The notes under the pieces were generated by a model. That model had not been told where the DNA came from, searched no databases, and worked only from the letters and a program-made list of their open reading frames with translations. Made by a program: the position numbers and the translations under genes. From Arthrobacter sp. TMP15 (GTDB lineage: Bacteria; Actinomycetota; Actinomycetes; Actinomycetales; Micrococcaceae), in contig NZ_CP154262.1 in NCBI RefSeq assembly GCF_039529835.1, forward strand, positions 1,302,001 through 1,366,000: a DNA stretch of 64,000 bases. Reading direction: 5' to 3'. Below are positions 3,536-48,955 of the stretch, one piece after another. Each line of letters opens with the position of its first letter. Within the stretch, counting starts at the first letter, position 1.

Positions 3536-6079
3536 GTGCGTATTCCACTGACTTGGCTGCGCGAGTATGCGCAGGTACCGGCAGGAGCAACTGCCGAAGA
3601 CGTTATGACCGATCTTGTTAAGGTTGGTTTTGAAGAAGAAGCTGTTCACCGTCCCATGGATGAGCTCAGCGGCCCCATTGTGGTGGGCCAGGTGTTGTCC
3701 AAGGAGCCAGAAGCGCAGTCCAACGGCAAAACCATCAACTGGTGCTCCGTTCGTGTGGTGCCCGAAGGCACGCAGCAGACCCTGGACATAGAGGGCATTG
3801 ACCCTTCCGGCATACAGGGCATTGTGTGCGGTGCGCACAACTTTGAGGTGGGGGACAAGGTTGTTGTCACCCTGCCCGGATCCGTGCTGCCAGGAGACTT
3901 CCGCATCACCCCGCGTAAGACCTATGGTCATGTCTCCGCCGGCATGATCGCCTCCGTCCGTGAGCTTGGCATTGGCGAGGATCATGATGGCATCCTGGTG
4001 CTTTCAACCCTGGGCCTTGACCCGGAAGTGGGCTCCGACGCGCTAGCGTTGCTGGGCCTGGATGATGAAGCTGCGGAAATCAACGTCACCCCGGACCGCG
4101 GCTACGTGTTCAGCATCCGTGGCGCAGCCCGCGAATACGCGCACGCCACCGACAGTGTCTTCACCGATCCGGCATCGCTGGTTTCGCTCACGGAAACTAC
4201 CGGACCCGGATATGGGGTGCGGCTAGCTGACGATGCCCCCATTTACGGGAAGGAGGGCTGCGATCGTTTTGTAGCCCGGACAGTCAGTGGGGTCAATGCT
4301 GGCGCGCCGACTCCCACCTGGATGTCCTCGCGCTTGCGTTTAGCGGGCATTCGCTCGATTTCGCTGCTTGTGGACATCTCCAACTACGTCATGTTGGAAC
4401 TGGGACAGCCGCTGCACTTCTACGACGCCGACAAGTTGGCCGGAGAGATTGTGGTCCGCCGGGCAGTGGCCGGAGAAACGCTAAAAACCCTTGACGGCAA
4501 GGTCCGCAAGCTCAATCCAGAAGACCTGCTGATCACCGATGACAATGGAGCCCTTGGCGTTGCCGGTGTTATGGGGGGCGCTTCCACCGAGGTCACTGCC
4601 GGGACAATAAACGTCCTTATTGAAGCAGCGCGCTTTGAAGAAGTTTCCATTTCCCGTTCGCGTCGCCGTCACAAGTTGCCCTCCGAGGCGTCTAAGCGGT
4701 TTGAACGTGGCGTGGATCCTGCTGTGGCCCAGGTGGGCGCTCAGCGTGCCGTGAACCTGCTGGTTGAACTCGCCGGCGGTACCGAGGAAACCACTGTCAC
4801 AGATGTTGGTACGCCCGCCGTCGCAGGTCCCGTGTTCCTGCCTCTGGGCTTCACTTCGTCACGGATCGGGATCGACTTCTCACAGGAGCAGATCATCGGT
4901 TCGCTGACGGATCTAGGTGCCGCAGTGGAAAAGGTCGACGGCGGATATTCCGTCACAGCCCCGAGCTGGCGATACGACCTTGTCACCAAGGAAGACCTGA
5001 CGGAGGAAGTAGTCCGCCTGGTGGGCTACGAGCAGATCCCTTCCACACTGCCCACTGCACCTCCGGGTCGGGGTTACTCCCGCACCCAGCAGCAGCGCCG
5101 CGGCACTGTGCAAGCATTAGCCCACTCAGGCCTGACAGAAGTTCTGGCTTACCCGTTCGTATCAAAGGCCTCCAATGAGACCTTTGGTGTGGCGAAGGCA
5201 GGGGAAGCACGCGCAGCGGTGAAGCTTGCCAACCCGTTGAGTGAGGAATTTGGGTACTTGCGGACCTCGGTACTGCCTGGGCTGATTGAGATTGCAAAGC
5301 GTAATCACTCGCGCGGATTCCATGATCTTGCGTTATTTGAATCAGGTCTTGTATTTTTGCCCTCGGGTGTGATGGGTTCACCTTCGATCCCACCTCTGGG
5401 TGTCAAGCCAACAGATGAGGTTCTGGATGCCTTGGATGAGGGCATTCCGTACCAGCCATTGACCATGGGCGCGCTCTTCACAGGTAAAGATTCACCCGCG
5501 GCTGTCGCCCATACCCCACGCGCCTGGGACTGGGCGGATGCCATTGACGCTGCCGTGCTGGTGGCCGATGTAGTGGGTGTTGAACTGGTGATCTCACAAG
5601 GAGAGCACCAGGCATTCCATCCGGGCCGCACTGCACAGCTTGCGCTACGCGGCGGAGAGGTTGTTGGCTACGCTGGCGAGCTTCACCCTAAGCTGCTTGC
5701 GGACCTGCACATGCCTGCCCGCTCGGTGGCCATGGAAATCAATGCCGAGAAGGTCTTTGCTGCGGCACCAGATGTCATTGTTGCTAAGCCGATCTCAACC
5801 TTCCCGGTTGCTACTCAGGATGTTGCCCTTGTGGTTCCGGTAGAAATTCCGGCACAGCGTGTGTTGGAAACCCTGCGCGAGGGCGCCGGTGTGCTCCTTG
5901 AAGATGTTGCCTTGTTTGATGATTATCAGGGCACGGGCATTCCCGAGGGACGCAAGTCGCTGGCATTTGGGCTGCGTTTCCGTGCTGCTGACCGCACATT
6001 GACAGCCGATGAAGCCTCAGGCGCCCGCGCCGCAGCGGTGGAACTGGCTGTTGAGAGGTTCGGCGCCACCCAGCGCTGA
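3536..6079 (+). CDS. pheT: phenylalanine--tRNA ligase beta subunit
   Basis: 847 residues, typical for actinobacterial PheT. It starts with GTG directly after pheS. Visible domains in order: the N-terminal MRIPLTWLREY segment; an EMAP-like tRNA-binding fold (about residues 40-160, with VCGAHNFEVGDKVVVTLPG); the B3/4 editing domain with HKLPSEASKRFERGVDP; the B5 domain (about 425-500, ending in APSWRYDLVTKEDLTEEVVRLVGY); the catalytic-like core with AYPFVS and LANPLSEEFGYLRTSVLPGL; and a C-terminal anticodon-binding FDX-ACB domain (FPVATQDVALVVP ... SLAFGLRFRAADRTLT). It works only with PheS and is followed by a terminator. Confidence 0.97.
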   Translation: MRIPLTWLREYAQVPAGATAEDVMTDLVKVGFEEEAVHRPMDELSGPIVVGQVLSKEPEAQSNGKTINWCSVRVVPEGTQQTLDIEGIDPSGIQGIVCGAHNFEVGDKVVVTLPGSVLPGDFRITPRKTYGHVSAGMIASVRELGIGEDHDGILVLSTLGLDPEVGSDALALLGLDDEAAEINVTPDRGYVFSIRGAAREYAHATDSVFTDPASLVSLTETTGPGYGVRLADDAPIYGKEGCDRFVARTVSGVNAGAPTPTWMSSRLRLAGIRSISLLVDISNYVMLELGQPLHFYDADKLAGEIVVRRAVAGETLKTLDGKVRKLNPEDLLITDDNGALGVAGVMGGASTEVTAGTINVLIEAARFEEVSISRSRRRHKLPSEASKRFERGVDPAVAQVGAQRAVNLLVELAGGTEETTVTDVGTPAVAGPVFLPLGFTSSRIGIDFSQEQIIGSLTDLGAAVEKVDGGYSVTAPSWRYDLVTKEDLTEEVVRLVGYEQIPSTLPTAPPGRGYSRTQQQRRGTVQALAHSGLTEVLAYPFVSKASNETFGVAKAGEARAAVKLANPLSEEFGYLRTSVLPGLIEIAKRNHSRGFHDLALFESGLVFLPSGVMGSPSIPPLGVKPTDEVLDALDEGIPYQPLTMGALFTGKDSPAAVAHTPRAWDWADAIDAAVLVADVVGVELVISQGEHQAFHPGRTAQLALRGGEVVGYAGELHPKLLADLHMPARSVAMEINAEKVFAAAPDVIVAKPISTFPVATQDVALVVPVEIPAQRVLETLREGAGVLLEDVALFDDYQGTGIPEGRKSLAFGLRFRAADRTLTADEASGARAAAVELAVERFGATQR

Positions 6080-7952: not shown

Positions 7953-8201
7953 AATTGTGACGGTAAGAGTGCCGCACCCATGGAGGCGATCCTGAAATCA
8001 TGCCTGAACCTTTCGGTGTGGCTCTGTACTCTCCTTGCTGCCACCAGTTTGGGTAGTGGGTAGCAAGTCTGCCCAGACGCGCAATAATGTACCCATAACA
8101 CGGTTCAAGGCAGGCAGTACCGGCTGATTCTGCTCTGACGGGGTTGGCTCAACTATGGACCCAACGTGGGCGCAGCGTCCGGGCCCAACCCGTGCAATAA
8201 A
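7953..8201. other. 249-base gap between convergent genes
   Basis: Lies between the stop of the iminopeptidase and the stop of the minus-strand polyphosphate kinase. I see no gene, tRNA or clear terminator hairpin with a T-run. Confidence 0.5.
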
Positions 8202-9086
8202 CTAAAACTCTTCACCCTCGCCCACCACTGCGGAGGCGGGGCCAACGATCAGTGGATCAGGTATCCCTACCAGCGCATGGTCCTTACCTGTGTAGTCAAA
8301 CAGGTTGAGCACATGCCGCATCGCTTCCAACCGGGCCCGCTTCTTGTCATTGGACTTCACCACGGTCCACGGTGCATGTCGTGTGTCAGTTTTTTTAAAC
8401 ATGCGTTCCTTGGCAGAGGTGTAAGCATCCCACTTATCCAGCGAGGCCACATCCATGGGGGAGAGCTTCCACTGCCGTACGGGGTCCACCTGGCGAATGA
8501 TGAAACGGGTGCGTTGCTCGGCTTGGGTGACGGAAAACCAGAACTTCACCACAGTCATTCCGTCATTGACAAGCATGCGCTCAAACGCTGGGGCCTGGCG
8601 GATGAATTCCTCATACTGCTCCTTGGTGCAAAAACCCATGACCCGTTCAACGCCCGTGCGGTTATACCAAGACCTATCGAATAACACCATTTCACCAGAG
8701 CTTGGCAGGTGTGCCACATAACGCTGGAAATGCCATTGAGTAGACTCACGCTTACTGGGCTTTTCCAGTGCAACCACGCGTGTGCCGCGAGGATTCAAAT
8801 GCTCGGTGAAGCGTTTGATGGTACCGCCCTTACCTGCGGCATCACGGCCCTCAAATAAGATTATTACGCGCCGCCCGGTAGCCTTGATCCATTGCTGAAG
8901 CTTTAAAAGTTCAATTTGCAGCAACCGCTTTTCAACGTCGTAAACCTCCCTCTCCAGACGGGCGTCATACGGGTAGCCGTGGCGCCACGTGTCAACTTGG
9001 GAGCCGTCCGGCGCCAACAGGATGGGATCGTCGTCGTCGCTGTCAATAACACTAAAACCGGTGAATTCCGGGTGTGGTTCAGTCAT
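8202..9086 (-). CDS. ppk2: polyphosphate kinase 2
   Basis: 294 residues. PPK2 proteins transfer phosphate between polyphosphate and nucleotides, most often making GTP or ATP from the diphosphate. The P-loop-like LFEGRDAAGKGGTIKRF (Walker A, about residues 87-103) and VLFDRSWYNRTGVERVMGFC (Walker B and lid) are diagnostic, as is the DPVRQWKLSPMD segment. A longer open frame reaches 9275, but its extra 63 residues are low-complexity and overlap the divergent gene. I chose ATG 9086 because TACGCT stands exactly 6 bases upstream and the sequence then begins like other family members. The end of the gene faces the iminopeptidase. Confidence 0.93.
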   Translation of the reverse strand: MTEPHPEFTGFSVIDSDDDDPILLAPDGSQVDTWRHGYPYDARLEREVYDVEKRLLQIELLKLQQWIKATGRRVIILFEGRDAAGKGGTIKRFTEHLNPRGTRVVALEKPSKRESTQWHFQRYVAHLPSSGEMVLFDRSWYNRTGVERVMGFCTKEQYEEFIRQAPAFERMLVNDGMTVVKFWFSVTQAEQRTRFIIRQVDPVRQWKLSPMDVASLDKWDAYTSAKERMFKKTDTRHAPWTVVKSNDKKRARLEAMRHVLNLFDYTGKDHALVGIPDPLIVGPASAVVGEGEEF

Positions 9087-9092
9087 GGCCTG

Positions 9093-9098
9093 AGCGTA
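9093..9098 (-). promoter_or_regulatory. candidate -10 hexamer TACGCT, 6 bases before ppk2
   Basis: Minus-strand TACGCT, then CAGGCC, then the ATG at 9086. It supports the shorter start and a leaderless transcript. Confidence 0.5.
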
Positions 9099-9141
9099 GT
9101 GGCAAAGAAAAAACTCTGTATGAACGGAAGGTGGAGCGGGG

Positions 9142-9903
9142 ATGAACGGAATAGGGTTTGACGTACTTGCGCGCGAGCACGTTGCCGTGGAGGCCTTTGA
9201 CTTGGCACAGGTGGATAAAAATTTGGCCACACTCTTGGACCCTGCTGAACATTTCCGCGCCGCTTCCATTGTCAATGCTGCAACGCGTCATGACTTCATT
9301 GCCGGACGCGTGGTGCAACGCCTAATGGCTGCGCAATTGCTTCAGGTTGACCCGCGTGCACTCGTGGCAGACTATAACTGCCCCGATTGTTCTGCGAGTC
9401 CGCTCTCTTCCCATGGCCGCCCCGGCTACCAGCTCGGGGGCGTACCTGCGCCCGTGTCAATTAGTTTCTCCCGCAGTCACGGTTGGGCACTGGCAGCCAT
9501 GATCCCTACAGCCATGATTCCTATAGCCTTGATTCCTAGAGCCATGATTCCTAGAGCCGGGATCGGCCTCGGCATCGATGTTCAGCACATCCCCGCGGTG
9601 GTCTTTGCCGGGTACGACGACGTGGCGCTGAGCGCCGCCGAAAAGTTCTCTCTCGCTCAGCTGGAGCCAGCGACGCAGGATCAGTGGCGGGCCAGAACGT
9701 GGGCCCGGAAAGAAGCGTTGGCTAAAGTCACGGGTTTGGGTCTGCGCACCGATCCGCGTGACATCATGGCCTACCCAGAATTAGAAGAGGCAGTAACAGG
9801 CACAGATGCTAAAACCGATGTGTGGGATCTTGCTCCGGGGGAGTGCGGCCTACCCAAGGACTTTGCCGGAGCTGTCGCTTTGCGCGTCAGCGGTAAAATT
9901 TAG
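9142..9903 (+). CDS. 4'-phosphopantetheinyl transferase
   Basis: 253 residues. This Sfp-like enzyme moves the phosphopantetheine arm of CoA onto a serine of a carrier domain. Motifs: the N-terminal RHDFIAGRVVQRLMAAQLL (RxxAxR-type helix), a CPDC...HGRPG element, SISFSRSHGWALAAM, the Mg-binding GIGLGIDVQ, and WARKEALAKVTGLGLRTDP, the W(x)RKEAxxKxxGxG signature. A purine-rich GGTGGAGCGGGG precedes the ATG. A 20-residue stretch of repeated AMIP-type pentapeptides is inserted between SHGWALA and GIGLGIDV (separate entry); relatives usually have only a short loop there. The gene faces the Pls-type synthetase, whose carrier serine is the likely local substrate. Confidence 0.88.
   Translation: MNGIGFDVLAREHVAVEAFDLAQVDKNLATLLDPAEHFRAASIVNAATRHDFIAGRVVQRLMAAQLLQVDPRALVADYNCPDCSASPLSSHGRPGYQLGGVPAPVSISFSRSHGWALAAMIPTAMIPIALIPRAMIPRAGIGLGIDVQHIPAVVFAGYDDVALSAAEKFSLAQLEPATQDQWRARTWARKEALAKVTGLGLRTDPRDIMAYPELEEAVTGTDAKTDVWDLAPGECGLPKDFAGAVALRVSGKI
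9496..9555. repeat. 15-bp tandem repeat (4 units) inside the phosphopantetheinyl transferase gene
   Basis: Four units of the form GCCATGATTCCTAGA (9496-9510, 9511-9525, 9526-9540, 9541-9555), differing at 1-3 positions and encoding AMIPT, AMIPI, ALIPR and AMIPR. The unit shares the CTAGAG hexamer (across the unit boundary) and the 15-base period with the lipoprotein repeat at 2037. Confidence 0.9.
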
Positions 9904-9912
9904 CTGGGGCGT

Positions 9913-11373
9913 TTAGTGGTGTGACAATGGTGGCAGTGGCTGTTGGTATAGCCACGGTGCTAAAACGTCAGCGGCCGAGAATCCCTGCACAGTGGCACAT
10001 ACTCGGTCAGCTAGCGCTATGAATCCCGCCGTCGTGACCGATCCGTGGCGGTTTTCCGCCACCCAACGCTGCAGTAGAGCGAAGAAATGGGTGTCGCCGA
10101 CGGTAGTGCGGAGGGCTTCCAGGGCCAAGGCTCCGCGCTTGTAAACGACGTCATCGAACATGTCCCTCGGACCAGGATCGCCGATTGCCAGGTTGTTGCG
10201 CTCTGATTGTAGTTTTTCATGCGCAGCGGTTGCACGTTCGGCAACACTCATTGACCCGCTGTCCTCGGACCACAGCCATTCGGCGTAGCAGGCAAAACCT
10301 TCGTGCAGCCAGATGTCACACCACGATGTCAGGGTTAATGAGTTGCCAAACCACTGATGTGAGAGTTCGTGGGCAATCAGCCGCTGGGACTCCCAGCCGG
10401 TGTCCAGGTGGTTGCTGCCGATAATGGATAGGGACTGCGCCTCCAAGGGAATCTCCAGTTCGTCCTCGGTCACCACCACCGTATACGTCTCAAACGGGTA
10501 CGGCCCAAAGTTCGCTGCGAAAACATCCACCATCTCTCGCTGCCTGGCCAAAGCAACCGCAGCCTGAGCTTGCAATTTTTTGGGCACAGCCACTGTAATG
10601 GGTAGCTTTGTTCCGTTTTTACTCTCAGGCAGCCTCAATAGTTTGTAGCGGCCGATCTGCAGCGTGGCCAAGTAGGGGGCCATGGGTGCCAGCTGTTCGT
10701 ACACCCATGTTTCCCGACTGGATTTCCTTGTGTGGGACACAAGCGTCCCATTACACACAGCCGTGTAGTCGGCGTCGGTGGTGATGGTAAAGCGGTACGA
10801 AGCCTTGTTATCGGCTCTATCGTTGCAAGGGAACCACGTGGGCGCCCCTGTAGGCTGGCCGGCGACCAACACGCCGTCGTCCAGTTCTTCCCAACCAACA
10901 TCGCCCCATTGATCGTTATCAGGTGATGGGATCCCGCTATAGCGGATGTCCATAGTGAATTCCGCCCCCGCCTGCACAGGAACAGGCAGGAGTAACTGCA
11001 GTTTCCCGTTGCGGTGGGAATGTTTAACGACCCGGGCTCCGTCCACAGTTGCTTTGTCCATGCCCAAGCCTGTGAGATCAAGTTCAACGTGTGTCAAAGC
11101 CACGAGTGCTCGTGCAGTCATAATGGCACGGCCCGTGAGCTGGTTGCCGGCAAGCCGGGCTTCCAAATCAAGCTCGTAATGCACCATCGAGTAGCTGGTG
11201 TTCCCGTGCAGCGGAATATAAGGATCCGGACGTGCTGGAACCACCGTGGCCTGTAAATCAGTGACTTCAGCGGACTCAGTGACCTCAGCCGACTCAGGGG
11301 CTGAGGCTGAGACGTTGGGCCCCGAGGTGCTGGCCGCCAAGGCGGAGTGCCGGGTGCGGTGAAGAAAATTCAT
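9913..11373 (-). CDS. M1 family zinc aminopeptidase
   Basis: 486 residues from ATG 11373. The catalytic zinc site is plain: LIAHELSHQWFGNSL followed by WLHEGFACYAEWLW, that is HExxH-(18)-E. Upstream, DELEIPLEAQSLSIIG replaces the classical GAMEN loop with a PLEAQ form seen in a bacterial subgroup. The N-terminal domain is the beta sandwich (FPCNDRADNKASYRFTIT). No signal peptide is visible. It lies 32 bases downstream of the Pls-type synthetase on the same strand, so probably in one operon. From family knowledge, poly-lysine producers carry membrane or cytoplasmic zinc aminopeptidases that degrade the polymer; a similar trimming or self-protection role is inference here. An earlier in-frame start would overlap the synthetase gene. 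Confidence 0.9.
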   Translation of the reverse strand: MNFLHRTRHSALAASTSGPNVSASAPESAEVTESAEVTDLQATVVPARPDPYIPLHGNTSYSMVHYELDLEARLAGNQLTGRAIMTARALVALTHVELDLTGLGMDKATVDGARVVKHSHRNGKLQLLLPVPVQAGAEFTMDIRYSGIPSPDNDQWGDVGWEELDDGVLVAGQPTGAPTWFPCNDRADNKASYRFTITTDADYTAVCNGTLVSHTRKSSRETWVYEQLAPMAPYLATLQIGRYKLLRLPESKNGTKLPITVAVPKKLQAQAAVALARQREMVDVFAANFGPYPFETYTVVVTEDELEIPLEAQSLSIIGSNHLDTGWESQRLIAHELSHQWFGNSLTLTSWCDIWLHEGFACYAEWLWSEDSGSMSVAERATAAHEKLQSERNNLAIGDPGPRDMFDDVVYKRGALALEALRTTVGDTHFFALLQRWVAENRHGSVTTAGFIALADRVCATVQGFSAADVLAPWLYQQPLPPLSHH

Positions 11374-11405
11374 GCTTGGGATGGTATCCAAATCAGTCTG
11401 GGATT

Positions 11406-14400
11406 CTAAGCGCGGTCGGCAAACTCGGGACCCTTCCAGGGGCTGATTGGGTTTCCCATCCAATAGCTGCTGGCAGGTACTGTTTCTCCGCGCATGACAA
11501 GGGAGGCCGGGCCCACAGTGCCGCTGCGAGCAATCCGTGCCGCGGGCAGGATCACACCATGCGGACCCATGGTGGCACCCTCTTCAAGCGTAACCGAATC
11601 AATGGCCATGACCCTGTCATGGAAGAGGTGCGTTTGGATTACGCACCCTCGGTTGACAGTGGAACTTTCACCCAGCGTGACAAGGTCGGCTTCGGGGAGC
11701 CAATAGCTTTCACACCAGGCTCCGTGCCCGATTTTCGCTCCGAGAGCACGCAACCACCAGACCATGGCCGGGGTGCCCACAGCCGCGCGGGCAAACCAAG
11801 GGGCACTGACCATTTCAATAAATGTATCGACCACTTCGTTACGCCAAATGAACGAGCTCCACAGCGGATGCTCCCCGGGTTTGATGCGGCCCACCAGGAC
11901 CCACTTGGCGGCCACTGAGCTGCCAGCGCCAAACGCACCGGCGGCCATCATGACGATGCCGCTGAAGAGTGCAGCCAACCAGTAATTGCCGGCAAGTGCG
12001 ACGCCGTCAAAGGTAACCAGCACTGCTGCGGCCACGGCCACAGAAAGAACCGTTGGTACCAGCCGGCAGCTTTCCCAGAGGGCTCGAGCCAGCTTGAGCC
12101 GCAAGGGTGGGGCGAAAGTGAGTGACTCATCGGTGTTGAGATTGGTGCGGCGCAAGCGCACAGGCGGGCTGCCTAGCCACGACGTACCAGCCTTTGCCTT
12201 GGCAGGGGCTGCCGAGAGGACCGCCACCAAAGAATTCCGTGGCATTGTGCGCCCTGCCGCTGCCATGCCGGAGTTGCCAAGGAATGAACGCTTACCCACT
12301 TTTGCGGGTGCGATGTGGATGTATCCGCCACCCAGCTCATAGGAGGCGATCATGGTGTCATCGGCCAAGAAAGCGCCGGAACCGATAGTTGTCATTTTGG
12401 GCAGCAGCAACACCGTTGAAGCCTCCACGTTCTTGCCGACCTTGGCCCCCAAAAGACGCAACCAGATGGGTGTGAACAGGCTGGAATAGATCGGGAACAA
12501 GAGATCCCGAGCCATATCCAGCACGCGTTCGGTGGCCCAAACCTGCCATCCAATCCGGCTACGCACCGGGTAGTGCCCCTCGCGGAGGCCTATGCCCAGC
12601 AACCGAACCGTGAGCAGGATCAGCCCAACCAAGGTGAGGAACCATGCCAGTGCTGCCACGGGAACAGACCACAACAGGGTAGGAATTGAGGCAGATAATG
12701 AACTCTGTCCATTGATGCTCAGCAACACTGCGCCAACGGCCACAGCCGCCGCCATGAAAGGCAGCAGGGATAGCAATGCGGCTGCGCTTGCAAAGGGTAG
12801 TTCATGCCACCCGTTGGTGGGCGTACGCAGATCCGGCCAGGAGTGTTTAGCCTTCCCAGTCCTTTCTGCCGGGGAGCCGGAAACCGTCACCCCGGGTTTG
12901 ACCTTGCCGCGCACCGCGGAACCTGGTGCCACATGAGCACCGGCGCCAACGCGTGCTCCCGGCATCAGAGTGCTGCGGGCTCCTACGACAGCGCCGCTAC
13001 CAATGGATATCTCGCCTATGTGCACCCAGTCTCCGTCGATCCACCAGCCGGAGAGATCCACCTCGGGTTCGATCGAGCAACCTTCGGCCAAGCGAAGCAA
13101 TCCAGTCACAGGCGGCACTGAGTGGAGATCCACATTGCGGCCCATCTTTACGCCCAAAGCTCGGGCGTAATACGGTACCCAGGGGGCACTGGCCAGGCTG
13201 ACAGCGCTGGCCATGTCCGCAATTTGTTCTGCTAGCCACAACCGCAGGTGCACTTTACCGGAGCGGGGATAACTGCCCGGCTGAACGCCGTGGAGGAGCA
13301 GACGCGCGCACACTACCGAGATCGCCATGCGACCCCACGGTGAGACAAAAACAAGCCAGGAGGCCCCTACCCACCACCAGGAAATGGTGGGGGCGCCGGG
13401 CAGGATGCCCTGCCACGCTGCCACATTGTTCAAGGCCATAAGGTATGTGAGCCAGCGCATTCCCACAAGGAGGTGCAGTGGCACACCCATGAGCGTTTGG
13501 AACACCTGGGATTTTCGCCGCGTGCGCCCCACTGTGCGATCGACTATTTTCAGAGGATCGCCGGCAGGATTGGAGCCCACGGCCAATTCCAGCAGGGCTC
13601 CGATCCTGGGGTGGGAATAGACCTCTGCAACCGTTATTCGCGGGTAGCGCTGTCGTAGCGCAGAAACCAGCTGAGCTGCGGCCAGACTGCCGCCGCCGCT
13701 GGCGAAGAAATCTGTGTCGAGCGAAGCGGGGGTACCACCCAAAACGCTATGCCATTGTTCCAGCACCCACTCGGCATCCGGGCCCAGTGTGCCCGCGAGC
13801 GAGACGCCCTCGTCCATGTCCTGATCCAACGGCCAGGGCAGAGCGGTGCGATCCACTTTGCCGCTTGTTTTGGTGGGCAGTGAATCCGTGAAAGTCAGAA
13901 GCGGAATCATGGGTGCTGGAAGCGACTCGGCCAGTAGTTCCCGCAGCGCGCCGGGATCCGGGCTGGTGCCCGGAGCCGGTACCAGGTAGCCGACAAGGAG
14001 CTGGTTGCCACCAGCCGTTTCCTGCACTGCAGCAGCGGCACCAGAGATGTCCGGCAGGCCCTGCAAAGCCGCGTCGATTTCGCCGAGTTCAATGCGCCGC
14101 CCGCCCAGTTTTATCTGATCATCCGCCCGGCCCATGAACACAAGGCCTACGCTCTCAAGACGCACAAGATCGCCACTGCGGTAGGCACGCTCCCAACCGA
14201 ATTCAGGCAGGGGAGCGTATTTCTCGGCATCCTTGGTCGGGTCAAGATAGCGTGCCAAGCCCACACCGGCAATGATTAACTCGCCCACTTCGCCCTCAGT
14301 TACGGGCCTTCCAGCCCCATCAACAACTGCCAGGTCCCAACCGTTTAGCGGCAGCCCGATACGCACAGGGCCTGGCCCGCCCAACGGCGCAGCACATGCC

Positions 14401-15389
14401 ACTACGGTTGCCTCTGTGGGGCCATAGGTGTTCCAGACTTCCCTACCGGGAACTGCCAATCGAGTGGCGAGTTCTGGCGGGCAGGCCTCTCCACCAAAGA
14501 TCAGCAGGCGCACCGATTCCAGTGCCTCGGCGGGCCACAGCGCCGCCAGCGTTGGCACGGTTGAGACCACCGTTATACCGTGCGAGATCAGCCACGGGCC
14601 CAAATCCATGCCGGATCGGACTAATGAGCGGGGTGCTGGAACCAAAGCGGCTCCGTAGCGCCAGGCCAGCCACATTTCCTCGCAGGAAGCATCGAAAGCT
14701 ACAGACAATCCGGCCAGAACTCTATCCTCCGGGCCGAGCGGATCTGACTGCAAAAAAATGCGGGCCTCAGCATCAACAAAGGCAGCAGCGGAACGGTTGC
14801 TGACAGCCACACCTTTCGGGGTACCGGTTGAGCCGGAGGTGAAAATAATCCAGGCATCGTCGCTGGGAAGCGGTGCCCTGGGCTCAGGGAAGGGACCTGG
14901 GCATGCCCTGTCAAGTGTTAGCGTTATCGCCTCTCCTGTTAGTTCATCTCCAAGGACGGCAGCCACGCCGGCTTCAGTAAAGACCAGCGAAGCACGTTCG
15001 GCGGGATCGTCAGCGTCCACTGGCACGTAGGCGGCCCCAATGGAGAGGATTGCCAGAATGGCAAGGTAAAGCCCGGACGTGCCTGAGGGTATCCGCACAC
15101 CTATTCTGTCGCCAGCGCCTAGACCGGCTTGAGTCAATTCCTGAGCCTTGCCGTGCACTGCTTTCAAGAGGTCTTCGTAGCTAAGCGCTTTCACGCCATC
15201 GTCCAGTGCTGTGGCGTCAGGGTGCAGCTCGGCCGTGGCTTGCAGTACCTCCCACAGGGTTCGGGGATCTGGCGCAAGCTCGCTGCCAGGCATTTGTGCG
15301 GCGAATTTGGCTGCTGCCGGTTTTGCTGCTGCCGGTTCGGCTGACACGGCAGCCTGGGGCAAGGGGTCACTCAAAGGGGCGGGGTTCAC
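11406..15389 (-). CDS. Pls/PosA-type non-ribosomal peptide synthetase (poly-lysine synthetase-like)
   Basis: About 1327 residues from GTG 15389, which has AAGGTGGG just upstream; the frame is open to a TTG at 15440, so the start is uncertain. An adenylation domain (about 43-520: IIFTSGSTGTPKG, NTYGPTEAT, YRSGDLVR, LPTKTSGKVDR) is followed by a carrier domain (FFASGGGSL, Ser about 568). There is no condensation or thioesterase domain. Instead come pairs of membrane helices alternating with three similar soluble repeats, each opening with LG[VA]K[MIV]G and rich in left-handed beta-helix hexapeptides. This is the layout of epsilon-poly-lysine synthetase, a membrane enzyme that polymerises one amino acid. 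Specificity-pocket residues, aligned by eye to GrsA, read D-A-E-S-I-G-T-V-V-K, close to a known lysine code. Flanked by an M1 peptidase and a phosphopantetheinyl transferase. Confidence 0.9.
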   Translation of the reverse strand: MNPAPLSDPLPQAAVSAEPAAAKPAAAKFAAQMPGSELAPDPRTLWEVLQATAELHPDATALDDGVKALSYEDLLKAVHGKAQELTQAGLGAGDRIGVRIPSGTSGLYLAILAILSIGAAYVPVDADDPAERASLVFTEAGVAAVLGDELTGEAITLTLDRACPGPFPEPRAPLPSDDAWIIFTSGSTGTPKGVAVSNRSAAAFVDAEARIFLQSDPLGPEDRVLAGLSVAFDASCEEMWLAWRYGAALVPAPRSLVRSGMDLGPWLISHGITVVSTVPTLAALWPAEALESVRLLIFGGEACPPELATRLAVPGREVWNTYGPTEATVVACAAPLGGPGPVRIGLPLNGWDLAVVDGAGRPVTEGEVGELIIAGVGLARYLDPTKDAEKYAPLPEFGWERAYRSGDLVRLESVGLVFMGRADDQIKLGGRRIELGEIDAALQGLPDISGAAAAVQETAGGNQLLVGYLVPAPGTSPDPGALRELLAESLPAPMIPLLTFTDSLPTKTSGKVDRTALPWPLDQDMDEGVSLAGTLGPDAEWVLEQWHSVLGGTPASLDTDFFASGGGSLAAAQLVSALRQRYPRITVAEVYSHPRIGALLELAVGSNPAGDPLKIVDRTVGRTRRKSQVFQTLMGVPLHLLVGMRWLTYLMALNNVAAWQGILPGAPTISWWWVGASWLVFVSPWGRMAISVVCARLLLHGVQPGSYPRSGKVHLRLWLAEQIADMASAVSLASAPWVPYYARALGVKMGRNVDLHSVPPVTGLLRLAEGCSIEPEVDLSGWWIDGDWVHIGEISIGSGAVVGARSTLMPGARVGAGAHVAPGSAVRGKVKPGVTVSGSPAERTGKAKHSWPDLRTPTNGWHELPFASAAALLSLLPFMAAAVAVGAVLLSINGQSSLSASIPTLLWSVPVAALAWFLTLVGLILLTVRLLGIGLREGHYPVRSRIGWQVWATERVLDMARDLLFPIYSSLFTPIWLRLLGAKVGKNVEASTVLLLPKMTTIGSGAFLADDTMIASYELGGGYIHIAPAKVGKRSFLGNSGMAAAGRTMPRNSLVAVLSAAPAKAKAGTSWLGSPPVRLRRTNLNTDESLTFAPPLRLKLARALWESCRLVPTVLSVAVAAAVLVTFDGVALAGNYWLAALFSGIVMMAAGAFGAGSSVAAKWVLVGRIKPGEHPLWSSFIWRNEVVDTFIEMVSAPWFARAAVGTPAMVWWLRALGAKIGHGAWCESYWLPEADLVTLGESSTVNRGCVIQTHLFHDRVMAIDSVTLEEGATMGPHGVILPAARIARSGTVGPASLVMRGETVPASSYWMGNPISPWKGPEFADRA

Positions 15390-15440
15390 CTGCCCACCTT
15401 GCACGGTCAAGGTGAACAGCAGTTGAATAGCAGGCAACAA

Positions 15441-15655
15441 GTAAGTTCATACACAGCCAAGTTCAGGCTTGCCCCGCTCACGCACAACCCAGGTGGGGAA
15501 CCCCGGATGGCCGGCTGCGCCCCTGACTACCGCACACCCTAGTGCGGCTTGGCCTGGGGTCTCCAGCGAAAAATTCACCCTCCGGCAACCTGTCCGCCGA
15601 AATCACCTGCCTACCAGGTGGCCTATCCTTCCATTTCCCGTATTGGAGCCGCCGT
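15441..15655. other. 215-base gap upstream of the synthetase
   Basis: Lies between the end of the quinone oxidoreductase and the earliest start of the synthetase (both minus strand). It holds a short palindrome, CACCTG-CCTAC-CAGGTG (15604-15620), that could act as a weak terminator for the oxidoreductase. I see no gene and no clear promoter. Confidence 0.4.
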
Positions 15656-16630
15656 CTAGGGCTCCAAAATAACTTTGCCAGTGGTGTTTCTGCCTTGCAG
15701 CGCAGTGTGCGCCGCGCCGGCCTCGGAGAGCGGGAAGCGGGCACCAAGCCGAGCGATTAGCCGGCCGGAGGCTGCTGCGTCGAACACTTCGGTTGAGCGC
15801 CACAAGCGTTCCTTGCCGTTACGAAGATAGTCTCCGAGCTTGGGTCTGACTACTGTTAGCGAGCCGCCAGCATTGAGCCTCTGCAAATCAAAGGGAGGCA
15901 CTTGCCCGGAGGCGCCCCCAAAGAGTACAAGGGTCCCTCGGGTGCGCAGCGACGCAAGCGAACCATCGAAAGTGTCCTTACCAACGCCGTCGAACACCAC
16001 ATCCACACCTTCGCCATCCGTGAGCTCACGGGCCTGCTCGGCAAAGTCCTCGTAACGCAACACCTCATCGGCACCGGCAACTCGGGAGAGCTCTTCCTTT
16101 TCTTCCGTTGACACTGTTGTGAAGACTCGGGCCCCGCGTTCCTTGAGCATCTGGGTCAGCAGCAGGCCCACACCACCAGCGCCGGCGTGTAGCAGGATTG
16201 TCTGCCCGGGCTCAACATGGTAGGTGGAATTCATCAGGTAGTGCGCCGTCATGCCCTGAAGCGGGAGAGCTGCCGCCACGTCCAGCGGCACACTGGAAGG
16301 GACGGGCAGTGCCTTATCGGCAGGGAAAATAGCGTACTCGGCATAGCAGGCCACGCCCTCGGCCGTGGCCACGCGATCTCCTACGGCATAGGAGCTCACT
16401 CCGGAGCCCACAGCAACAACTTTTCCGGCCGCCTCCGCACCGGGAATGAACGGGAAATCCACAGGATAAATACCCTCACGCTGGTAGCTCTCAATGAAGT
16501 TCACACCCACGGCGGCGATTTTGACAAGCAATTCACCGGGCCCAGGGACCGGCATAGGAACCTGGGTGAGCTTCAAAACCTCCGGGCCGCCCGGGGCCTG
16601 GGCGAGGATGGCGTTGGCGTACTCGGTCAT
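15656..16630 (-). CDS. NADPH:quinone oxidoreductase (zeta-crystallin type)
   Basis: 324 residues from ATG 16630. Zinc-free medium-chain dehydrogenase/reductase that reduces quinones with NADPH in the cytoplasm. Visible: the GroES-like N-terminal domain with VGVNFIESYQREGIYP and PFIPGAEAAGKVVAVG; the nucleotide-binding HAGAGGVGLLLTQM (Rossmann GxGxxG-like); DVVFDGVGKDTFDGSL; and the C-terminal TGKVILEP. The open frame extends another 138 codons upstream, but that part looks non-coding and runs into the argC gene. ATG 16630 begins with MTEYANAILAQAPGGPEVL, typical for the family, and has TTGGAG about 8 bases before it. Confidence 0.9.
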   Translation of the reverse strand: MTEYANAILAQAPGGPEVLKLTQVPMPVPGPGELLVKIAAVGVNFIESYQREGIYPVDFPFIPGAEAAGKVVAVGSGVSSYAVGDRVATAEGVACYAEYAIFPADKALPVPSSVPLDVAAALPLQGMTAHYLMNSTYHVEPGQTILLHAGAGGVGLLLTQMLKERGARVFTTVSTEEKEELSRVAGADEVLRYEDFAEQARELTDGEGVDVVFDGVGKDTFDGSLASLRTRGTLVLFGGASGQVPPFDLQRLNAGGSLTVVRPKLGDYLRNGKERLWRSTEVFDAAASGRLIARLGARFPLSEAGAAHTALQGRNTTGKVILEP

Positions 16631-16722
16631 GATGGACTCCAAATCGGTGGTGGTCGGCTGCGGTCGGAGCGGACTCCTGATGTTAATCATAGGACCCCAA
16701 AGCAACATTAAACCGAGCAATA

Positions 16723-16763
16723 TGGATAAATATCGGTGAGGATGAATAGTTCTGCTGTATAGT
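16723..16763 (+). promoter_or_regulatory. argC promoter with two degenerate ARG boxes
   Basis: TGGAT-AAAT-ATCGG (16723-16736) and TGAAT-AGTT-CTGCT (16743-16756) resemble ArgR half-site pairs (TGNAT-N4-ATNCA) and have centres 20 bases apart, the same spacing as at argG. A -10 element TATAGT (16758-16763) follows, 6 bases before the argC ATG, with no ribosome binding site. This fits ArgR repression of a leaderless argCJBDFR mRNA. The right-hand halves are poor matches. Confidence 0.45.
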
Positions 16764-16769
16764 CGACTT

Positions 16770-17816
16770 ATGACAATTTCAGTAGCTGTCTCCGGAGCCA
16801 GCGGATATGCCGGGGGAGAAGTGCTGCGTCTGCTGGCCAGCCATCCCAACGTAAGCATCGGTGCCATCACGGCCCACAGCAACGCCGGAGCTCGATTAGG
16901 CTCCCTCGTGCCGAATCTGCACGCGCTGGCAGACCGGGTCCTGGTCGAGACCACAGTTGATAACCTTTCCGGGCACGACGTCGTCTTTCTGGCCTTGCCG
17001 CATGGGGCCTCTGCTGCCATTGCCGCGCTGTTGCCAGCTGACACGCTCGTAATCGACGCCGGTGCCGATCACCGTCTGGAAGATGCAGCGGCTTGGGAAA
17101 AATTCTACGGTTCTGAGCACGCAGGCACCTGGCCCTATGGCCTGCCCGAACTGCCCGGCCACCGCGAAAAAATTCGTGGCGCCAAACGAATCGCCGTTCC
17201 CGGCTGCTACCCAACAAGCTCCCTGCTGGCCCTCCTGCCGGGTTTCGCAGCTAACGCACTGCTGCCCGATGACGTAGTCATCGTCGCAGCGTCCGGGACC
17301 TCCGGGGCTGGCAAAGCCGCCAAAATCAACCTGATAGGTTCCGAAGTTATTGGCTCAATGAGCCCCTACGGCGTGGGAGGCGGGCACCGCCACACCCCGG
17401 AGATTGAACAGGGGCTCTCCAACGCTTCCGGCAAGGAAGTAACTGTTTCATTCACACCTACTTTGGCCCCTATGAGCCGCGGTATCCTCACAACTGCCAC
17501 GGCCAAGGTCTCGGCTGAGTTCGCGGCATTGGCTGATCCCGCAGCGGCTTTACGTGAAATCTGGGTGGATGCCTATGACGAGGAACCTTTTGTGCATGTG
17601 CTTGAGGAGGGCCAGTGGCCTGCAACAAAGTCTGTGCAAGGGTCCAACTATGCAGCTATCCAAATTGCCTATGACGCCCACGTTAACCGAGTGATTGTTT
17701 GCTGTGCCATTGATAATCTCACCAAGGGCACTGCCGGCGGGGCAGTGCAGTCAATGAATATTGCCCTCGGCCTGCCTGAAACAACAGGTCTGACCTTCCA
17801 AGGAGTAGCACCATGA
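16770..17816 (+). CDS. argC: N-acetyl-gamma-glutamyl-phosphate reductase
   Basis: 348 residues, full length. Third step of arginine synthesis: NADPH-dependent reduction of N-acetylglutamyl phosphate to the semialdehyde. The N-terminus has the Rossmann motif [18 protein letters not shown]. The active site Cys is in [15 protein letters not shown] (about residue 148), and the catalytic His region is [14 protein letters not shown]. First gene of the argCJBDFR operon; it overlaps argJ by 4 bases (ATGA, 17813-17816). Confidence 0.97.
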
Positions 17817-24193: not shown

Positions 24194-25621
<1,428 letters not shown>

Positions 25622-25692: not shown

Positions 25693-25802
25693 AGCGCCTA
25701 GCGGCCTCCCACCACTGGCAGGCTCGCGCCGGGCCCCTCGGCCGTCTAGCGCCTAGCGGCCTCCCACCACTGGCAGGCTCGCGCCGGGCCCCTCGGCCGT
25801 CT
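25693..25802. repeat. 55-bp perfect tandem duplication upstream of a gene
   Basis: Two adjacent copies, 25693-25747 and 25748-25802, appear identical. Each begins AGCGCCTAGCGGCC and ends CCTCGGCCGTCT. The end of the second copy joins the following bases to make TAGGCT, the candidate -10 of the next gene. The copies lie between the argH terminator and the start at 25815. Confidence 0.92.
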
Positions 25803-25807
25803 AGGCT
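25802..25807 (+). promoter_or_regulatory. candidate -10 hexamer TAGGCT, 7 bases before the start
   Basis: TAGGCT is formed at the right edge of the 55-bp duplication and stands 7 bases before the ATG at 25815, so the mRNA may be leaderless. Confidence 0.45.
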
Positions 25808-46414: not shown

Positions 46415-46519
46415 ACTGTAGTCTGGACAATTGGGTTCATGGTTTTTTCAATAGAAGATCACAAGTGAAGAGCGGCTGTTACTGTGCCAGTTAGTGCGCT
46501 CATAGTTTTAGGAGTCGGC

Positions 46520-48955
46520 ATGGCTGAGCAGTACGAAGGACAGCGCGACAATAACTCTCGCGGACAAGACGCTAACGGAAAGTCCTACACAGAGCGTCCG
46601 GCAACGAACGATCGTCAGCCCGCGCGTCCATATAGTGAGCGTAGCGGGCAGGGTGCGCGTCCCGCAGGTGGACGCCCGGTAAGAAACAATGAGCGTCCAT
46701 CTTTTGGTGGCCGTGATGATCGTGGTGGCCGCGATGATCGTCCGGCGCGTAGCAACGACCGTCCCTCCTATGGTGATCGCGATAACCGTGGCGGCCAGGG
46801 TGGACGCCCGGCACAGGACCGCGATTCACGCCCCAGCTACGGCAACCGCGAAGACCGCCCCGCACGCAGTGCTGACCGGCCAATGGTTAACGGCCGCCGC
46901 GAAGACCGCAAGCCTTTCGGTGATCGCGATAACCGTGGCGGCCAAGGTGGACGCCCGGCACAGGACCGCGATTCACGCCCCAGCTACGGCAACCGCGAAG
47001 ACCGCCCCGCACGCAGTGCTGACCGGCCAATGGTTAACGGCCGCCGCGAAGACCGCAAGCCTTATGGTGATCGCGATAACCGTGGTGGCCAGGGTGGACG
47101 CCCGGCACCGGACCGCGATTCACGCCCCAGCTACGGCAACCGCGAAGACCGCCCCGCACGTCCCGCTTTCGGTGGCCGCGAAGATCGCCCCGCACGCAGC
47201 AACGACCGTCCCTATGGTGATCGCGATAACCGTGGTGGCCAGGGTGGACGCCCGGCACCGGACCGCGATTCACGCCCCAGCTACGGCAACCGCGAAGACC
47301 GCCCCGCACGTCCCGCTTTCGGTGGCCGCGAAGATCGCCCCGCACGCAGCAACGACCGCCCCTACGGTGATCGCGATAACCGTGGTGGCCAGGGTGGACG
47401 CCCGGCACCGGACCGCGATTCACGCCCCAGCTACGGCAACCGTGAAGACCGCCCCGCACGCCCCGCTTTCGGTGGCCGCGAAGATCGCCCCGCACGCAGC
47501 AACGACCGCCCCTACGGTGATCGCGATAACCGTGGTGGCCAGGGTGGACGCCCGGCACAGGACCGCGATTCACGCCCCAGCTACGGCAACCGTGAAGACC
47601 GCCCCGCACGCCCCGCTTTCGGTGGCCGCGAAGATCGCCCCGCACGCAGCAACGACCGCCCCTACGGTGATCGCGATAACCGTGGTGGCCAGGGTGGACG
47701 CCCGGCACCGGACCGCGATTCACGCCCCAGCTACGGCAACCGTGAAGACCGCCCCGCACGCCCCGCTTTCGGTGGCCGCGATGATCGCCCCGCACGCAGC
47801 AACGACCGCCCCAGCCATGGCAGTGCCCGTGACGATCGTGGACCCCGCACCACAGGTCCCCGCACCACAGGTCCCCGCACACCCCCGGAACGGAACGCTG
47901 GCGATCTTCGCAGCTCCAACCGCCCTGACCGTGAACGTTCACCAGAGATCGATCCCGATGTCACAGGGGAGGAGCTTGATAAGGTAACCCGCGCGCAGCT
48001 TCGTATTTTGGACGCCAAAAACAACGAGTGGGTTTCCAAACACCTTGTCATGGCCGGACGCTTAATCGACTTCGTCCCTGAGGTCGCCTTTGAGCACGCT
48101 TTGGCCGCTAGCCGTCGTGGCGGTCGCTTGGCCTGTGTCCGTGAAGCTGTTGCCATGACTGCCTACGCCGCCGGCAAATACGGTGAGGCGTTACGTGAAC
48201 TTCGCACCTTCCGCCGCATCAGTGGTTCCAACGCTCACTTGCCTCTCATGGCAGATTGTGAACGCGGTTTGGGCCGCCCGGACCGTGCACTTGATCTGAT
48301 CAAGTCAGAAGACGCTGAAGGTCTGGATCTGGCCGGCAAGGTTGAGTTGGCCATCGTTGAATCCGGGGCTCGCGGGGATCTTGGTGAGATGGAGGCGGCA
48401 TTATCTGCCCTCGAGATCCCGCAGCTGGATATCAACCGTGCGTTCTCCTTCAGCCCGCGTCTGTTCCGTGCTTACGGCATGATTTTGCGTGCGGCCGGTC
48501 GCAAGGATGAGGCTAAAACATGGGAGCGTCAGGCTCTTGTTGCCGAGGAAGCTCTGGGCATCGATGAGGGAACCGATCAGATCATCATCGACCTCGGTGA
48601 CGATGAAGAGATCCCCTTGGAGTCCCCGCGCGTTCGCGTGTCAGATGTCATGGCTGCACCTGTTGCGCCTGTGATGAACGACGCCGACATCCAGGCCGCT
48701 GCGGAACTGCCCTCAGGCGATGCTGAAGTTGCGCAGCACGACGAGCTCAATGTGGATGATGCGCAGTCATCCTACTTTGATTCCGATGACGCCGAGTCAG
48801 ATGCCGACAGTGCTGACACAGACAGTCATGATGCCGACAGTGCTGACACAGACAGTCATGACGCTGAGAGCCTCGAGCAGGTCCACGAAGAAACTGTTGT
48901 AGAAGATGCCGCTGAAGGCGAGGACGTCCAGGAGCCCGGCCACAGTGACAGCTAA
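46520..48955 (+). CDS. arginine/glycine-rich repeat protein with a TPR-like C-terminal domain
   Basis: 811 residues from ATG 46520 (TAGGAG upstream). Residues about 1-480 are disordered and rich in Arg, Asp, Gly, Pro and Asn. Residues about 85-432 are seven near-identical repeats of 49-50 residues built from units such as GDRDNRGGQGGRPA, DRDSRPSYGNREDRPAR and FGGREDRPARSNDRP. Residues about 490-690 are alpha-helical repeats of TPR type (VAFEHALAASRRGGRLACVR, AAGKYGEALRELRTFRRI, RALDLIKSEDAEGLDLAGKV). The last 65 residues are very acidic. The helical domain resembles a conserved actinobacterial protein found before the HAD-tlyA genes, but I cannot name a function. The RG-like arm suggests RNA or protein binding (inference). 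The HAD gene start overlaps its end. Confidence 0.8.
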   Translation: MAEQYEGQRDNNSRGQDANGKSYTERPATNDRQPARPYSERSGQGARPAGGRPVRNNERPSFGGRDDRGGRDDRPARSNDRPSYGDRDNRGGQGGRPAQDRDSRPSYGNREDRPARSADRPMVNGRREDRKPFGDRDNRGGQGGRPAQDRDSRPSYGNREDRPARSADRPMVNGRREDRKPYGDRDNRGGQGGRPAPDRDSRPSYGNREDRPARPAFGGREDRPARSNDRPYGDRDNRGGQGGRPAPDRDSRPSYGNREDRPARPAFGGREDRPARSNDRPYGDRDNRGGQGGRPAPDRDSRPSYGNREDRPARPAFGGREDRPARSNDRPYGDRDNRGGQGGRPAQDRDSRPSYGNREDRPARPAFGGREDRPARSNDRPYGDRDNRGGQGGRPAPDRDSRPSYGNREDRPARPAFGGRDDRPARSNDRPSHGSARDDRGPRTTGPRTTGPRTPPERNAGDLRSSNRPDRERSPEIDPDVTGEELDKVTRAQLRILDAKNNEWVSKHLVMAGRLIDFVPEVAFEHALAASRRGGRLACVREAVAMTAYAAGKYGEALRELRTFRRISGSNAHLPLMADCERGLGRPDRALDLIKSEDAEGLDLAGKVELAIVESGARGDLGEMEAALSALEIPQLDINRAFSFSPRLFRAYGMILRAAGRKDEAKTWERQALVAEEALGIDEGTDQIIIDLGDDEEIPLESPRVRVSDVMAAPVAPVMNDADIQAAAELPSGDAEVAQHDELNVDDAQSSYFDSDDAESDADSADTDSHDADSADTDSHDAESLEQVHEETVVEDAAEGEDVQEPGHSDS
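46772..47815. repeat. 147/150-bp tandem repeats (7 units) inside the repeat protein gene
   Basis: Units begin with GGTGATCGCGATAACCGTGG at 46772, 46919, 47066, 47216, 47366, 47516 and 47666. The first two are 147 bases and the rest 150 (the last ends near 47815). Copies differ at few positions, so they were recently homogenised. Other frames stay open through the array as an artefact of the repeat. Confidence 0.93.
48800..48859. repeat. 30-bp tandem repeat in the acidic tail
   Basis: Two identical 30-base units beginning GATGCCGACAGTGCTGACAC at 48800 and 48830. They encode Asp/Ser-rich decapeptides (DADSADTDSH) in the acidic C-terminal tail of the repeat protein. Confidence 0.85.

Follow-up and report, generated by a model that had tools for sequence, protein, structure and literature searches.

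The window analysed here is a 64,000-nucleotide stretch of contig NZ_CP154262.1 from Arthrobacter sp. TMP15, a member of the Micrococcaceae with a genome of 3.7 Mb that is 99.98% complete. Within it lies a compact group of genes that, judged from sequence comparison, we take to be a cassette for the synthesis of epsilon-poly-L-lysine (epsilon-PL), with a probability of roughly 0.85. All coordinates are positions within the window and strands are given relative to its forward strand. The largest gene, pls (11406..15389, -), runs from a GTG start at 15389 to a TAG stop at 11406-11408 and encodes a Pls/PosA-family homopolymer synthetase of 1327 amino acids, as a preliminary description of the locus had correctly placed and measured it. 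It is followed on the same strand by a gene for a PldII-like M1 zinc aminopeptidase (PF01433; 9913..11373, -), whose ATG at 11373 stands 32 bp past the pls stop and whose own stop is at 9913. A gene for a Sfp-type 4'-phosphopantetheinyl transferase (PPTase; 9142..9903, +) carrying the WxRKEA motif converges on the peptidase gene, with 9 bp between them; both the peptidase and this PF01648 activator had been recognized beforehand. Divergent from the PPTase gene, across 55 bp, is a gene for polyphosphate kinase 2 (PPK2; 8202..9086, -). It falls outside the interval first considered (9142-15389) and was therefore missing from the set then proposed, although the functional cassette probably includes it.

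Pls matches TIGR02353, the Pls/PosA C-terminal domain, with 693.7 bits against a cut-off of 423.1 over residues 629-1315, and is the only protein in the genome to exceed that cut-off. It falls narrowly short of the general amino-acid-adenylation model TIGR01733 (316.2 bits, cut-off 317.4). The Pfam models recover AMP-binding at residues 50-380, PP-binding at 540-601 and one hexapeptide stretch at 794-828, while AMP-binding_C (437-511, 21.4 bits) remains below its cut-off of 24.5. No condensation or thioesterase domain was found in the Pfam scan (E <= 0.001), in agreement with the adenylation-thiolation layout proposed earlier. The adenylation (A) domain, delimited by Pfam and by alignment to 7WEW, spans approximately residues 43-522 (13824..15263, -). 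The thiolation (T) domain, or carrier, occupies residues 540-601 (13587..13772, -; PP-binding E 4.6e-10). Its motif FFASGGGSL had been called unusual, but GGGSL is present in 108 of the 121 rows having a T domain and is not unusual in the family.

By sequence, the best solved relative is 7WEW, an epsilon-poly-L-lysine synthase (E 1e-192), to which the A domain is identical at 324 of 487 aligned residues. The pocket columns were located by what we take to be the corresponding positions of GrsA; the residues are D233, A234, E237, S276, I297, G299, T321, V329, V330 and K511. They spell DAESIGTVVK and are identical to those of 7WEW at all ten positions, bearing out the earlier suggestion of a Pls-type synthetase with a lysine-like pocket. 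The letters had been read correctly at that stage; the pocket was wrongly placed one substitution away from the lysine code because the reference code used was incorrect. DAESIGTVVK occurs in 112 of 122 aligned rows (the window and 7WEW included) and DAESIGTVIK in 9, the remaining row (L060) being gapped and truncated. The spacing of the columns matches the PosA numbering to one residue (PMC10522769). Full pocket identity with the solved Pls makes lysine a likelier substrate than ornithine, diaminobutyrate or diaminopropionate, which narrows the choice of lysine, ornithine, diaminobutyrate or beta-lysine left by the preliminary description. Identical or highly similar pockets are reported for coryneform Pls homologues, including those of Arthrobacter, and the Pls of Corynebacterium variabile yielded epsilon-PL when placed in Streptomyces coelicolor (PMC8117764).

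The C-terminal membrane part (residues 610-1327; 11409..13562, -) is predicted by hhalign, AlphaFold2 and TIGR02353 to consist of three helix pairs alternating with three soluble domains, C1-C3. The soluble domains are mutually related (hhalign E 3.3e-18 for C1-C2, 1.8e-17 for C1-C3 and 8.1e-10 for C2-C3). An AlphaFold2 model of this part, built from 27 sequences and of moderate confidence (pLDDT 75.9, pTM 0.80), places three pairs of long helices in alternation with C1-C3 and shows short strands stacked into ladders in C1 and C2 and, less clearly, in C3. Hydropathy alone gives clear peaks for helix pairs two and three only, and it also marks two stretches of the A domain, which is soluble. 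The trio of similar soluble domains and the alternating membrane helices first noticed are thus recovered by hhalign and the model, with clear hydropathy for two of the three pairs.

The peptidase matches PF01433 and PF17900 and carries the zinc motif HELSH-x18-E. Its likeness to PldII rests on the M1 peptidases encoded after pls in Streptomyces sp. NBC_01454 (43.6% identity) and Kitasatospora sp. NBC_00039 (46.2%) rather than on S. albulus PldII itself. In the former the annotated M1 gene overlaps the end of pls by 4 bp, and in the latter a gap of 128 bp separates the two. Conservation of the neighbourhood was assessed in 121 loci, comprising the window, 40 hand-picked stretches from a family search and the best 80 of 595 matches; this is not a random sample, and the named loci were sorted by genus name. 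Every one of the 112 loci of the pls clade, 65 from Micrococcaceae and 47 from other actinobacteria, has an M1 gene no more than 8 kb from pls. The pls-pldII pair is a published arrangement (PMC8117764, PMC9223678), in which the peptidase gene sits directly downstream of pls and its presence distinguishes the epsilon-PL type (PMC8117764). Given that pair, the product is most likely epsilon-PL. The parts of the make-activate-trim set put forward in the preliminary description are all supported, although trimming, being the known pls-pldII pairing, is not a new idea. The nine DAESIGTVIK sequences belong to a second Pls clade (L063-L071) that usually lacks this partner, with an M1 gene nearby in 2 of 9 loci; its substrate may be the same.

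The PPTase matches PF01648 (the ACPS superfamily) with 41.2 bits against a cut-off of 25, and its residues D146, W187, K190, E191 and K195 are invariant across 19 relatives. At E <= 0.001 the genome has two PF01648 matches, the PPTase and a 118-aa frame, and two PP-binding matches, the Pls T domain and a 96-aa frame. The two short frames are presumably AcpS and the acyl carrier protein (ACP) of fatty-acid synthesis, respectively, and the simplest pairing would be AcpS with the ACP and the PPTase with Pls. With two carrier domains and two transferase matches in the genome, the PPTase looks dedicated to Pls. Among 23 genomes of the genus, a close PPTase (E <= 1e-72) is found in 8 of 8 that carry pls and in none of the 15 that lack it; four of the latter have a weaker match (E 1e-21 to 1e-26) and eleven have none at E <= 1e-4. 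Weaker matches also occur, in addition, in three pls-positive genomes (G157, G245 and G248). A 15-bp tandem repeat lies in frame inside the PPTase gene (9494..9558, +), encoding four MIPxA units; the genome G157 (L037), of the same species, has five, and by eye two relatives (L086 and L126) have different repeats in roughly that loop.

PPK2 scores 375.7 bits against the equivalog model TIGR03707 (cut-off 301.8), and the closest solved chains bear the name Polyphosphate kinase 2. Its distribution was followed across 245 genomes of the family, an even sample of a larger group; 139 of the 245 carry pls (a match at E <= 1e-100) and 106 do not. The PPK2 matches in these genomes split into those of at least 452 bits and those of at most 439 bits. 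The group at or above 450 bits is represented in 40 genomes, all of them among the 139 with pls and none among the 106 without; the gene lies within 10 kb of pls in 39 of the 40 and within 5 kb in 37. In G198, PPK2 and pls are on different contigs. Two more linked PPK2 genes belong to the lower-scoring group (G029, locus L041, and G244, locus L074). Fisher's exact test for the association of pls and PPK2 gives 2e-6 in the genus and 1e-11 in the family, values that are not true probabilities because the genomes are related. In a tree of 46 PPK2 rows, where L074 and L194 are one G244 gene entered twice, a single fork of 36 rows (support 94/100) takes in 24 of the 26 linked rows, along with a clade in which 10 unlinked rows join the G244 gene. 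The linked label needs 3 changes on this tree compared with 15.2 in shuffles, none of 500 shuffles being as low. This distribution indicates that the signal comes mostly from a single old association that outlasted rearrangements of gene order, with a separate one in G244.

The cassette of the window lies between pheT (3536-6079) and, upstream of pls, a quinone-reductase-like gene (QOR; 15656..~16630, -) beyond which are argC, argJ, argB, argD and argF. The names of pheT and of the arginine genes were assigned by eye, and QOR by Pfam, the NCBIfam models being below their cut-offs. At the pheT-to-argC site, PPK2, PPTase, M1 and pls are all present in the 8 pls-positive genomes of the genus. The 15 pls-negative genomes keep QOR and argC and have none of the four genes in a stretch of approximately 12 kb upstream of argC, and pheT too is included in 12 of the 15 stretches. 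Nine show weak AMP-binding matches of 25-28% on the far side of pheT, which were not counted as Pls. On a tree of argC and QOR (28 rows) the best topology needs seven changes of pls status, at least three of them forced by well-supported branches. As few changes sufficed in 33 of 500 shuffles, indicating a scattered trait and not one tied to a clade.

Comparison with other Micrococcaceae, which the preliminary description had recommended, gives an M1 gene beside pls in 65 of 65 loci, a PPTase in 53 and PPK2 in 21, all within 8 kb. PPTase is as near in 5 of 47 other loci and 3 of 9 loci of the variant clade. PPK2 remains with pls in the orders PPK2-PPTase-M1-pls, PPK2-M1-pls, PPK2-M1-pls-PPTase and PPTase-M1-pls-PPK2. 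For L044 the order is inconsistent between two listings, and a long frame probably produced the deviating one as an artefact; in G231 the PPTase and M1 genes are 6.3 kb apart. In a blind search of neighbouring genes (top 45 clusters), loci outside the Micrococcaceae returned mainly pls, M1 and shadow frames.

The following scheme would account for these genes. The sequences themselves show the family membership, the identical pocket, the domain layout, the linkage of the genes and their shared presence or absence; the substrate, the product, the action of the peptidase and the pairing of the PPTase with Pls are inferred. The PPTase would attach the phosphopantetheine arm to the carrier domain of Pls. 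L-Lysine would be activated with ATP by the A domain, releasing AMP and pyrophosphate, and then loaded onto the carrier. In place of a condensation domain, C1-C3, embedded in the membrane, would join successive lysines, carboxyl to side-chain amine, until release of the chain. Epsilon-polylysine would be cut by the M1 peptidase, for self-protection or recycling. PPK2, whose role we hold most cautiously of all, would most likely help to regenerate ATP from polyphosphate while Pls turns ATP into AMP. TIGR03707-type PPK2 enzymes act on ADP, and adenylate kinase would presumably have to make ADP out of the AMP. ATP recycling is preferred because Pls consumes ATP to AMP for every lysine and ATP shortage is described as one of the main constraints on making epsilon-PL in S. 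albulus, and because adding the PPK2B of Corynebacterium glutamicum to that organism raised epsilon-PL by 17.61%, or by 21.24% when combined with a polyP:AMP phosphotransferase (PMC10012588).

Several observations weigh against this interpretation. The report on C. variabile records no detected epsilon-PL in C. variabile itself (PMC8117764). In G245 and G246 (L174 and L175) pls is split into two frames while PPK2, PPTase and M1 remain, through either decay or assembly error. Position 148 of the PPTase is Q, where most relatives have E. The M1 protein has no strong hydrophobic N-terminal stretch by hydropathy, whereas PldII is reported to lie outside the membrane (PMC9223678), so the location of the two enzymes may differ. 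Adjacent genes can vanish in a single deletion, and block loss alone could explain their joint absence, which is therefore weaker evidence than it appears. In 44 of 65 Micrococcaceae loci no PPK2 gene lies within 8 kb of pls, nor does one in any of the 47 other actinobacterial loci or the 9 variant-clade loci. Its absence from that range in the 44 and in all 47 other loci indicates that it is not essential. Finally, one more protein of the PPK2 family is encoded in the genome.

The alternative with the best claim, which we regard as close to an even bet, is that PPK2 is a passenger with a housekeeping job, kept or deleted with pls by adjacency only. It agrees with the fact that PPK2 is not near pls in most lineages and that most of the link is a single old association, as the fork holding 24 of 26 linked rows indicates. 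It fits less well with the absence of the high-scoring group from all 106 pls-negative family genomes, with the persistence of PPK2 beside pls while gene order varies, and with the G244 gene, which comes from an otherwise unlinked clade and adjoins a second copy of pls. A further proposal, that part of the Micrococcaceae evolved a self-powered cassette in which Pls is accompanied by its own PPTase, its own peptidase and a pls-bound PPK2 recycling spent nucleotide from polyphosphate, an arrangement that engineering later reproduced in S. albulus, we offer tentatively, at somewhat less than even odds. PPK2 might instead matter through polyphosphate itself, a polyanion binding or storing the polycation. 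PPK2 enzymes act on polyphosphate, as the family name says, and its charge pairing with polylysine is chemically plausible, but enzymes of this type run mostly towards the nucleoside triphosphate; we consider this role unlikely.

It is improbable, to a slightly greater degree, that the PPTase serves other carriers and stands beside pls incidentally. In keeping with such a reading, 12 of 65 Micrococcaceae loci and 42 of 47 others lack a PPTase within 8 kb of pls. However, the only other carrier match in the genome is the presumed ACP, for which the presumed AcpS is available, and the close PPTase is missing from every pls-negative member of the genus. Least likely of all, and very doubtful, is that Pls builds its polymer from ornithine, diaminobutyrate, diaminopropionate or beta-lysine in place of lysine, with the adjoining arginine-pathway genes supplying ornithine: the Pls/PosA family does make such polymers (PMC10522769), but the pocket agrees with that of the lysine enzyme 7WEW at every one of its ten positions, including the A at position 2, which is M in PosA and F in PDAP/PDAB synthetase (PMC10522769), the peptidase partner marks the epsilon-PL type (PMC8117764), and argC stays beside QOR in all 15 pls-negative genomes as well.

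The locus resembles the Pls-PldII systems of Streptomyces albulus and C. variabile in its A-T-membrane layout, in a pocket with the same residues as the solved A domain from S. albulus and in the peptidase gene directly downstream. It differs from them in the nearby PPTase and PPK2, in an M1 protein without an obvious signal peptide, and in an M1 start 32 bp after pls (an upstream TTG is a possible alternative), where pldII is reported to be translationally coupled to pls (PMC9223678). PosA, the delta-poly-L-ornithine synthetase of Acinetobacter baumannii, shares the family and the overall layout, but its pocket is DMEHNGTVSK instead of DAESIGTVVK (PMC10522769). The engineered ATP regeneration in S. 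albulus likewise combines PPK2 with Pls, but there PPK2 was introduced (PMC10012588), whereas in part of the Micrococcaceae it is a neighbour of pls and the link looks natural. The Pls-M1 core is already known, and what goes further is a PPTase that looks dedicated and a PPK2 bound to pls; no natural link of pls with PPK2 or PPTase surfaced in open-access full texts, a survey that leaves subscription papers uncovered and makes no claim of absence from print.

Epsilon-polylysine is a natural antimicrobial and a commercial food preservative. If the natural pls-PPK2 link is true, bacteria would themselves have met the ATP limit on its synthesis, PPK2 enzymes already paired with Pls would be at hand, and polyphosphate-driven nonribosomal synthesis could be put to a direct test. 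Close relatives, among which the cassette is repeatedly present or absent as a whole, also provide natural pairs with and without pls in which to probe the use of the polymer to its maker.

A general link between pls and genes of polyphosphate or phosphate metabolism was considered and dropped. PhoU and CYTH-CHAD matches occur in 1 of 84 loci, that of a Rhodococcus opacus B4 plasmid, and PstB-like matches in 10 of 84, nine of which were inspected and proved to be the source and eight at 26-35% identity. The pls gene of that plasmid, pROB01 (L203), is near CYTH-CHAD, PhoU and PstB genes, and no M1 match was found in the 15.8 kb stretch around it. Pls-family matches were recorded on 81 plasmid records, of which 18 cover at least 80% of the query. 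In the window itself, a scan of 8000-16800 gave no promoter-like sites (2.7 in shuffles) and seven terminator-like sites (8.9 in shuffles). Elsewhere, a 55-bp tandem duplication (25693-25804; two copies, 100% matches) lies just past an argH-like frame named by eye (24197-25621), and an 823-aa reading frame at 46484-48955 contains in its first half an R-, G-, D- and P-rich repeat of 150 bp in about seven copies (46724-47812).

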